Origin: Armatimonadota bacterium
GTDB lineage: Bacteria; Armatimonadota; Fimbriimonadia; Fimbriimonadales; Fimbriimonadaceae
Direction: 5' to 3'
Length of the DNA: 64,000 nt
NCBI GenBank assembly: GCA_020438215.1
Contig: JAGQUX010000001.1
Span: 1-64,000, forward strand
Below the pieces are notes generated by a model. The model was not told where the DNA came from and did not search any database. It worked only from the letters and a program-made list of their open reading frames with translations. This document shows positions 45,630-47,909 of the stretch, in pieces. A program made the translations under genes and the position numbers. How positions within the stretch are numbered: position 1 is the stretch's first letter; every line of letters begins with the position of its first letter.

Positions 45630-47036
45630 TTACGGCATTTCCTTGGCCAATTGCGTCATCCGAACAAGAAGATGTCCATAGATCCGGCTTGCGCGGAAGA
45701 GATGCTCAACCCCGTATCGCTCGTCGGTTTCGTGAGCCGGGCCATCTCCAGCCCAGCCAGTTCCAATTGCAACGCAGTTCGGTACCGCGCGAGCGTAAGT
45801 TCCTCCACCCATCGTACCGGGCTTCTTTGTATCGCCGGTTTCCGCTTCGTAAACCTCTTGGATGGTCTGGATCAGCGGGTGGTCGATTGGGAAGTAAAGC
45901 GGTTTGGAATCGCTGGCACTCACAAGTGTCGGCTTGCCTACATTGTCCGCCAGCTTGGCTTCTACTTTGGCTTTTAGTTCATCGAAAACAAACGTCACCG
46001 GATAACGCACGTTGATCGTGAACAGGATGTGACCATCCTTGGTCTCAACAATCCCGAGGTTAGCCGTGAGCGGCCCGCTCGGTTCATCCGCCCCGGCGAT
46101 ACCGATCCCATTCCCGCCTGGGTGTGTGAGTTCGTGCATCTGATCGAACTCTCGCTCTTGACTCGTTGGTGCGCAATCCTTGAGGAATCGAAGGATGCGA
46201 CAAACGGCGTTATCTCCTCCAAACGGATTGGCCCCGTGTGATGCCTTCCCAACAGCAGTGATATTTAGTTCATCGCCATTCCATTCAAAGGTCAGGTTTC
46301 GATCCCAGCTTTCGGCGATGGCATTTTCAAGGATCGACTTCCCTGCCCCCGATGCCAGCACCTTGGCTTTCGCCGAATCAATGACGATATTCGGGCGTTG
46401 CCCTCCTTCCAGGCTCAGGAGAGTCAGATCGCCTTTAGGGATGGGCCAAGAAACAACAAAGTCGGAAATCCCTTTCTCGCCGTGGATACACGGCCAACCC
46501 GCATCTGGTGCAACACCAATCGTTGGCACTTCCTCAGTCTTCAAATAATGCTTCACACATCCAAATCCGGACTCTTCATCACAGCCGAACACGTTGCGAA
46601 CTCGGACGCCCGGATCACCCATCACCGCTTTGACGGCAAGCGAAGCGTAGAACATCGCCATCGTTGGCCCTTTGTCATCCACCGCGCCACGAGCATAAAC
46701 CCAGCCATCTTCGACTTCTGCCCCGAACGGCTCATGCTTCCAACCCGGCCCGACCGGAACAACATCCACATGCCCAAGAGACATCACCATCTGCGACCCG
46801 GAACCAAATTCGGCGAATCCGTAATAGCCTTCGCCATCCTTTGTGGACATCCCATGAGATGCGCTCAGGCTGAGCATGTAATCCAACGCCCGGCGGTTCT
46901 CGGCACCAAATGGGGCATTCGGTTCTGGATCTGATTCAATGCTGGGAATCTGAAGAAGTTTGCGGTAATCAGCAAGAAGGTCATCTTCGTGGGCGCGGAG
47001 CCATTCTTGAACTTGCGCAACGATGTTGTGAGACAT
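45630..47036 (-). CDS. M20-family dipeptidase (PepV-like)
   Basis: 468 residues from ATG 47036; an earlier in-frame start adds 15 residues and would sit upstream of the CATAAT box (47044-47049). Zinc dipeptidase of the M20 family: MSLGHVDVVPVGPGW (metal His and catalytic Asp), VYARGAVDDKGPTMAMFYAS and FGCDEESGFGCVKHYLKTEE with the general-base Glu, and a C-terminal dimerisation/metal lid with GGGTYARAVPNCVAIG. It cleaves N-terminal residues from dipeptides. The PepSY gene follows it. Confidence 0.9.
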   Translation of the reverse strand: MSHNIVAQVQEWLRAHEDDLLADYRKLLQIPSIESDPEPNAPFGAENRRALDYMLSLSASHGMSTKDGEGYYGFAEFGSGSQMVMSLGHVDVVPVGPGWKHEPFGAEVEDGWVYARGAVDDKGPTMAMFYASLAVKAVMGDPGVRVRNVFGCDEESGFGCVKHYLKTEEVPTIGVAPDAGWPCIHGEKGISDFVVSWPIPKGDLTLLSLEGGQRPNIVIDSAKAKVLASGAGKSILENAIAESWDRNLTFEWNGDELNITAVGKASHGANPFGGDNAVCRILRFLKDCAPTSQEREFDQMHELTHPGGNGIGIAGADEPSGPLTANLGIVETKDGHILFTINVRYPVTFVFDELKAKVEAKLADNVGKPTLVSASDSKPLYFPIDHPLIQTIQEVYEAETGDTKKPGTMGGGTYARAVPNCVAIGTGWAGDGPAHETDERYGVEHLFRASRIYGHLLVRMTQLAKEMP

Positions 47037-47072
47037 GCCTGCGATTATGAAGCCTAACGGCACCAGATCGCT

Positions 47073-47105
47073 TAAAAACACAAAGGCCCCGACTTCGTCG
47101 AGGCC
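47073..47105 (-). terminator. Intrinsic terminator of the putative structured RNA
   Basis: Leftward, GGCCTCGAC, loop GAA and GTCGGGGCC pair with one mismatch, followed by TTTGTGTTTTT. It ends 24 bases upstream of the pepV-like gene's own CATAAT box, so it isolates the upstream transcript from pepV. Confidence 0.75.
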
Positions 47106-47346
47106 TCTGATGCTTGTCAGTTCAATTCAACCCGTCCATGGGTCGAATCTGCCGCTCCTCTGGGTTATTGCTCTCTCGCCCCACATCGTGGGATCCCTAA
47201 GGGAGGTGCTGGAGACCCGGGCGGCAGCTTGGGCCGTCCAGTCACCAAGGTATTTCTTCCACCTCCCCCGTAAAGTCACCCAGGTGGAATTACTAGGTCA
47301 CGGGTCACAATTTTGCCCCCGCCGGCACAAGTTCCTTTAACATTAA
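47073..47346 (-). ncRNA. Putative structured non-coding RNA (family not recognised)
   Basis: This 424-base gap between the dipeptidase start (47036) and the small ORF at 47461 contains no convincing ORF, but has many complementary segments on the minus strand: TTCCACCT with AGGTGGAA, GGTG-CTGGA with TCCAG-CACC around CGGCCCAAGCTGCCG, CCCAC-GATG-TGGGG, and TTCGACCC with GGGTTGAA. It ends with an intrinsic terminator. A weak promoter (TATGTT near 47351-47356, minus) may start it at about 47346. I looked for tmRNA, RNase P, SRP and common riboswitch motifs and found none; a 6S-type RNA cannot be excluded. The remaining 47351-47460 shows nothing else except a short stem at 47407-47425. Confidence 0.5.
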
Positions 47347-47460: not shown

Positions 47461-47634
47461 ATGACTATTTGTTGGTGGTGGAATAAGTCGCAAAAATACC
47501 AGGCCGAATTCTCGCCGGATTCAGGCTCATTTGAACCTTTTTTCAAAAAAGTCGACCCGATCATCTCAAATTTCAGGATCAACGTGGAAGGAAACAAACA
47601 GGCGGCAATACGAAAAATGCGAGGAATGGGTTAA
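47461..47634 (+). CDS. Small ORF with tandem Trp codons, coupled to the LuxR-type gene
   Basis: 57 residues (MTICWWWNKSQKYQAEFS, then a basic C-terminus ending AAIRKMRGMG). It is too short for automatic calling but is well supported. The stop TAA shares its last A with the ATG of the next gene (TAATG at 47632-47636), so the two are translationally coupled. AGGTG six bases before the ATG is a plausible ribosome-binding site. Residues 4-7 are Cys-Trp-Trp-Trp. It may be a small protein in its own right or a leader whose translation senses Trp supply. No homologue known to me. Confidence 0.6.
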   Translation: MTICWWWNKSQKYQAEFSPDSGSFEPFFKKVDPIISNFRINVEGNKQAAIRKMRGMG

Positions 47635-47909
47635 TGGCAATGCCTGGTACATCTAGAACTGGTGATTCTCCACGAGGAGTCCGACTGACTCCTACGGAAG
47701 TCAAAGTCCTGAGCTTAATTGCTCAAGGTCACTCAAGCCAAGAAGCAGCCGATCGAATGGTTGTTTCAAAGCGAACAGTAGACTTCCACTTGGCGAACAT
47801 CTATCAAAAGCTTCAAGTAAACAATCGCGTGCAAGCTCTGCGCGCCGCGACCCGACTCGGTTTGATTCCGTTCGAACCGTTCTTTGGACACACTCAAGGC
47901 GAATCCTAA
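47634..47909 (+). CDS. Stand-alone LuxR-type (GerE) helix-turn-helix regulator
   Basis: 91 residues, little more than a DNA-binding domain: VRLTPTEVKVLSLIAQGHSS then QEAADRMVVSKRTVDFHLAN and IYQKLQVNNRVQALRAATRL, all classical GerE features (T/P-E-x-x-V-L-x-L, the recognition helix SKRTVDFH). There is no receiver or autoinducer domain, so its activity would be set by level or by a partner. Its start is coupled to the small Trp-rich ORF. Confidence 0.9.
   Translation: MAMPGTSRTGDSPRGVRLTPTEVKVLSLIAQGHSSQEAADRMVVSKRTVDFHLANIYQKLQVNNRVQALRAATRLGLIPFEPFFGHTQGES

Follow-up and report, generated by a model that had tools for sequence, protein, structure and literature searches.

The region at positions 47073–47346 of the window, which is the whole analysed stretch of 64,000 nt from a member of the Fimbriimonadales, an order of poorly studied soil and water bacteria, raises the question of what kind of RNA it may encode and which gene this RNA may serve. 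The initial annotation regarded the region as an ORF-free structured RNA with several strong stems and its own terminator, located just upstream of a dipeptidase gene, and offered a 6S-type RNA, a new regulatory RNA or a long riboswitch-like leader as possible identities. As argued below, the locus is probably a trans-acting small RNA (sRNA) gene of Fimbriimonadales, the loop of which targets the mRNA of a LuxR/GerE-type regulator within a probable feedback circuit.

The minus strand of the region (47070–47346) folds with −112.8 kcal/mol (z = −3.7), surpassing 200 of 200 dinucleotide shuffles, compared with z = −1.9 for the plus strand; the strong stems described earlier are present. The terminator was also described correctly as far as its elements are concerned, as a stem of 13 pairs (8 GC) at 47109–47081 is followed by TTTTT on the minus strand; however, it is private to the window genome, and terminator-like sites at the locus (one per 800 bp, against a mean of 1.0 in shuffles) are as frequent as expected by chance. 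The region is not strictly devoid of ORFs, since a mechanical ORF of 101 aa on the plus strand spans 47035–47340, although nothing marks it as a gene.

Searches against Rfam 15 matched only tRNAs in the window at the gathering threshold and no family in the region, while relaxed E-values gave nothing credible there (the best sub-threshold match reached 17.6 bits, with 114 needed), which agrees with the previous impression that no common RNA motif is present. Three relatives (L006, L024 and L063) had no match up to E = 1. 6S RNA (RF00013) was matched neither in the window nor in the whole genome at E 0.001, in a search whose control matched 5 of 14 known genomes; this result and the shape of the element, a single hairpin of ~45 nt, speak against a 6S-type RNA. 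The blastn search of the whole region against 60 related genomes returned no match, because the stems diverge too quickly, and the element initially seemed confined to the window genome.

The locus was compared by position and structure. Besides the window genome (assembly G000), the searches covered 85 further genomes of the same family, while order-level and class-level searches led to an identical set of 113 genomes, to which the distribution figures refer. The M20 peptidase (dipeptidase) gene and the divergent gene of a 91-aa LuxR/GerE protein were located in the relatives, and the DNA upstream of the dipeptidase gene was compared by synteny. The RNA locus proved real on the minus strand, as proposed, but its conserved part is smaller than the annotated region, comprising only ~47204–47297 (−). 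This unit has one layout across 43 loci upstream of the dipeptidase gene, namely an 18-bp palindrome, 19 bp, GGAA, 10 bp and a hairpin (Table 1). The columns were anchored on GGAA, so that the conservation score of GGAA is inflated, while no anchor was set on the palindrome. The relatives compared have no counterpart of the terminator-bearing 3′ stretch (47204 to 47109–47081).

Table 1. Features of the sRNA locus and its surroundings in the window.
Feature	Position	Strand	Evidence or remark
M20-family peptidase (dipeptidase) gene	45630..47036	−	Adjacent gene only; in other lineages not linked to the RNA
3′ extension carrying additional stems and the intrinsic terminator (stem 47109–47081)	47076..47204	−	Seen only in the window genome
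Conserved 42-nt sRNA hairpin	47205..47246	−	Both helices show compensatory changes
Loop core UGCCGCC, proposed seed for the LuxR-type mRNA leader	47220..47226	−	Folded hairpins and pairing energies
TGGAA, core promoter-like box	47257..47261	−	Spacing in nearly all genomes: 19 bp to palindrome, 10 bp to hairpin
Imperfect 18-bp palindrome CCTAGTAATTCCACCTGG, putative LuxR-type operator of the sRNA gene	47280..47297	−	Column conservation, 43 loci
Promoter-like CATCTCA-N16-TGGAA of the LuxR-type gene	47562..47589	+	Conserved in relatives
GGCGGCA box, complement of the sRNA loop core, in the leader of the LuxR-type mRNA	47601..47607	+	Leader comparison
91-aa LuxR/GerE helix-turn-helix protein (PF00196), proposed target and proposed activator	47634..47909	+	Pfam

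The majority consensus of the palindrome over the 43 loci, CCTGGTAACGTTACCAGG, is its own reverse complement and thus a perfect palindrome, and a symmetry scan of the unit peaks at its centre only, which lies 42.5 bp before the start of the hairpin. LuxR-type operators are palindromes of similar form, and LuxR-type activators usually sit at this distance. By geometry and resemblance, the palindrome thus looks like an operator of a LuxR-type dimer and is regarded as a candidate for this role. The position of GGAA is at odds with a standard −10 hexamer, and the start site of the sRNA is therefore uncertain. The CCTGGTAA element was considered as the −10 box and dropped, as the GGAA-anchored columns revealed the palindrome at a fixed distance. 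Altogether, the unit provides a promoter-like architecture upstream of the hairpin, with T-rich tails in about half of the genomes. A second genomic copy of the promoter pattern of the LuxR-type gene is located at L222 (G000:C32:20723–20750, minus strand), where CCTGGTAACCGTGC, half of the sRNA palindrome, lies directly upstream; this copy precedes small reading frames, one of which has 80 aa, and is possibly another member of the same regulon.

Folding gives a single hairpin of 39–52 nt in nearly every locus, which usually starts with GG and carries a CCGCC-type loop. The letters of the stem vary strongly between genomes with compensation, while those of the loop are constant. Each of the nine pairs scored in a structure-fitted alignment of 40 matches has changed on both sides, and the covariation score is 0.432, against 0.219 ± 0.021 for shuffled alignments and at most 0.165 for slid structures; on a plain MAFFT alignment of 22 sequences it is 0.385 against 0.225. 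The comparative alignment by which the annotation was to be checked has thus revealed covariation of the stem. T makes up 44% of the 10 nt that follow the hairpin, compared with 23% upstream, and at least five T occur within ten bases after 18 of the 36 hairpins measured, so that the hairpin probably doubles as a terminator in those genomes.

A covariance model (R1) built on the conserved unit, with matches below ~25 bits excluded from the counts, detected one strong copy per genome within the family, in ~50 family genomes; a match in G105 (C7:358252) was rejected, as it is without the loop and resembles chance. By the same model, the unit reaches a second family of Fimbriimonadales (f5) and probably a third one. 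The second family is represented by G050, G046 and G042 (E 5e-8 to 1e-5, with 5e-8 for G050), where the copies lie ~1.5 kb from the LuxR-type gene and a prepilin-like reading frame, with no dipeptidase gene, is found downstream. Additional matches were obtained in G044 and, more weakly, in G040 and G038. Outside the training set of R1, G084, G020 and G032 have their copies at a distance of 1.3–1.5 kb from the LuxR-type gene, the dipeptidase gene being elsewhere, while the copies of G018 and G098 are away from both genes, with the sRNA and its proposed target gene on different contigs. No obligate link to one downstream gene was found, as the dipeptidase link is absent in G084, G020, G032, G018/G098 and family f5. 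The unit accompanies the LuxR-type gene where the dipeptidase gene is not a neighbour, and the gene to which it is linked is thus that of the LuxR-type regulator rather than that of the dipeptidase; a long riboswitch-like leader of the dipeptidase gene is not supported, given the six genomes (G084, G020, G032, G050, G046 and G042) in which the RNA stands beside the LuxR-type gene without the dipeptidase gene. In most genomes galK is located between the two genes, divergent beside the unit. The unit was also considered as a galK leader, which was dropped since the window genome and G001 have lost galK at the locus and kept the unit.

Several peculiarities were observed in the neighbourhood of the unit. 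In many relatives (e.g. L014, L030 and L082), the box GGTAACCT is found a few bases before the dipeptidase start codon, a placement as in leaderless mRNA with a TANNNT-type −10 element. The old dipeptidase start seems duplicated and decayed in G005 and G006 (L007, 1440–1500, and L008), where GGCATTTCTCAGCAGGAGATCGCGAGCC, ahead of the present start, is similar to the start region of relatives and has come to form a stem like that of a terminator. Upstream of the dipeptidase gene in G028 (L025), the unit seems to be inverted, as the hairpin with the loop GCCGCC lies on the other strand, with TTTTATTTTT after it and an CCTAGTAAAA element next to it.

The LuxR-type protein is 90–98% identical in the closest genera, compared with mostly 55–69% for the neighbouring peptidase. 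In the leaders of this gene in relatives, TGGAA is followed after 10–11 bp by GGCGG, which is the complement of the loop core; the box is located ~27 nt before the start codon in the window and about 27–33 nt overall. Duplexes of the loop, read by hand from the folded hairpins, with the leader of the same genome have a mean energy of −16.6 kcal/mol in 41 genomes, against −14.6 kcal/mol when permuted (z = −6.5; 0 of 20,000 permutations as strong), and z is likewise −6.5 for all 52 genomes, where the permutation ignores relatedness and the independent loop–leader co-changes really number ~8–10. In the 11 out-of-sample genomes found by R1 alone, the effect is weaker (p = 0.06). Clear co-changes that are specific to a lineage include GUUUGUUGCCC with GGGCGGCAAAC (G010/G093), UAACCGCCCA with UGGGCGGUUA (G078), UCAACCGCCU with AGGCGGUUGA (G026/G073/G075), UCCAUC.GCCUG with CAGGCGGUGGA (G067/G080) and, with the RNA and the target on different contigs, CUCUAGCCGC with GCGGUUAGAG (G018/G098), while matching idiosyncratic flanks of loop and leader also occur in G017 and G009/G091. 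The predicted pairing comprises only 6–8 bp in many genomes, including that of the window. A conserved and co-varying complementarity to a separately transcribed mRNA, the hallmark of a trans-acting base-pairing sRNA, was thus found in both the 41- and the 52-genome comparisons.

In genus g20, five genomes whose leaders were read (G063, G064, G072, G076 and G079) have neither a detectable unit nor the GGCGG leader box, which fits a joint loss. Six others (G012, G015, G016, G021, G025 and G030) keep the box with no sRNA detected, and the box may therefore serve another use. In the genus of the window, CAGGC(GGC) of the leader (47599–47650) is able to pair with AUGGCAAUGCCUG, the start region of that transcript. 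This helix is strong in the genus and not general in the family, and a cis helix formed universally by leader box and start codon was rejected. At the level of sequence comparison, the unit is shown to be conserved, with a covarying stem and a conserved loop; it is linked to the LuxR-type gene, and loop and leader are complementary, with flanks that co-vary. The covarying hairpin with its conserved loop and its own promoter-like architecture in ~50 genomes supports the second of the identities offered initially, a new regulatory RNA.

Transcription of the sRNA would begin on the minus strand at ~47246, with the 5′ end of the RNA predicted at this position or a few nt away from it; the first 42 nt are predicted to fold into one hairpin with the loop UGCCGCC exposed. 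In many relatives, a T-rich stretch directly after the hairpin would limit the whole RNA to ~50 nt, the loop of the terminator being the putative seed. The hairpin of the window genome has no T run directly after it, and the RNA therefore probably reads on to the terminator at 47109–47081, which would give a length of ~170 nt. The loop would pair with GGCGGCA near the 5′ end of the divergent regulator mRNA, and Hfq may help this pairing. The genome encodes Hfq (G000:C31:71745–71936, 99 bits) on the same contig, ~7.7 kb past the end of the window. The adjacent GerE-type protein is the obvious candidate activator of the sRNA, where a dimer would bind the palindrome at the usual activator distance and switch the sRNA on; as the palindrome is operator-like and lies at this distance, the regulator probably activates an RNA acting on its own mRNA. 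The simplest and more likely outcome would be feedback repression. Alternatively, given that pairing of the box with the start-codon region is possible in the window genus, the RNA could activate, opening the leader/start-codon helix and freeing the start site. That this is a minimal sRNA family, where the terminator hairpin is the whole RNA and the apical loop its seed, in a two-gene GerE-type circuit co-evolved across the order, is a tentative extension, put at somewhat below an even chance.

The loop core CCGCC is short and GC-rich, and some genomes with no detected sRNA still carry the leader box, as might be expected if the conserved sRNA acted through its loop on other mRNAs or on a protein and the LuxR-type leader match were incidental or one of many. 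This is considered unlikely, though worth keeping in mind, as the loop and leader flanks co-change in several lineages, even with the RNA on another contig, and the RNA keeps its place beside the LuxR-type gene while other neighbours change. A leader or attenuator acting in cis on the gene that follows (the dipeptidase gene in the window) would have to accommodate a downstream gene that varies between lineages, a promoter-like GGTAACCT box located after the hairpin at the start codon of several dipeptidase genes, and a T-rich terminator at the end of many copies, or between the RNA and the dipeptidase gene in the window genome. Such a leader is thus very improbable, although the hairpin lies ~45 nt ahead of the dipeptidase start in G002 and G004 and shortly ahead of the prepilin-like gene in G050 and G046.

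It is hardly credible, moreover, that the unit acts only as DNA, i.e. as a bidirectional promoter or operator between divergent genes with an ordinary terminator hairpin of no RNA function. The conserved loop, with stem letters changing by compensation, is the reverse of what an ordinary terminator would present, and the unit has been kept in the window genome and G001, which have lost galK at the locus, even if the palindrome and GGAA are the most conserved columns with a rigid, DNA-like spacing and galK is divergent beside the unit in most genomes.

A trans-acting sRNA directed at the LuxR-type mRNA is accordingly the preferred reading. Its loop matches the mRNA start of an adjacent gene that resembles a master regulator, which suggests an RNA-based feedback circuit not described before. 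No paper joining these bacterial groups with small or non-coding RNA was found in a literature search; if the reading is true, this part of Armatimonadota would thereby gain its first described family of small regulatory RNAs, as far as found. The family would mark the small and highly conserved LuxR-type regulator as a central switch under feedback control, and the compensatory changes that have arisen naturally in RNA and target allow a direct test of the interaction.

By the features compared here, the sRNA would work like a trans-acting, loop-first antisense RNA, and is neither 6S RNA, nor a member of a known Rfam family, nor the leader of a fixed gene. Its likeness to 6S RNA (RF00013) is limited to being a structured RNA with a putative promoter and terminator of its own, as it is a single hairpin without the open bubble of 6S RNA. 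In Vibrio, the Qrr sRNAs, which have several stems and sigma-54 promoters, control the mRNA of LuxR/HapR, a TetR-type protein. The proposed circuit is alike in that an sRNA would control the mRNA of a ‘LuxR’ transcription factor in a feedback loop, whereas its target is of the GerE helix-turn-helix type, its RNA is a single hairpin, and the two systems have no sequence or structural relation. FinP, CopA and RNA-OUT are cis-encoded, loop-acting antisense RNAs with full complementarity to their targets; like these, the sRNA has a stable stem-loop whose loop would start pairing with the 5′ leader of the target, but here the two partners would be transcribed separately, from sites 350 bp to many kb apart, and are complementary only in part. 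The RsaE-type sRNAs of Firmicutes pair through C-rich loops with the ribosome-binding sites of many mRNAs. An exposed C-rich loop for a G-rich mRNA sequence is common to both, while the box of the present system is located ~27–33 nt before the start codon, near the predicted 5′ end of the mRNA, and co-changes with the loop.
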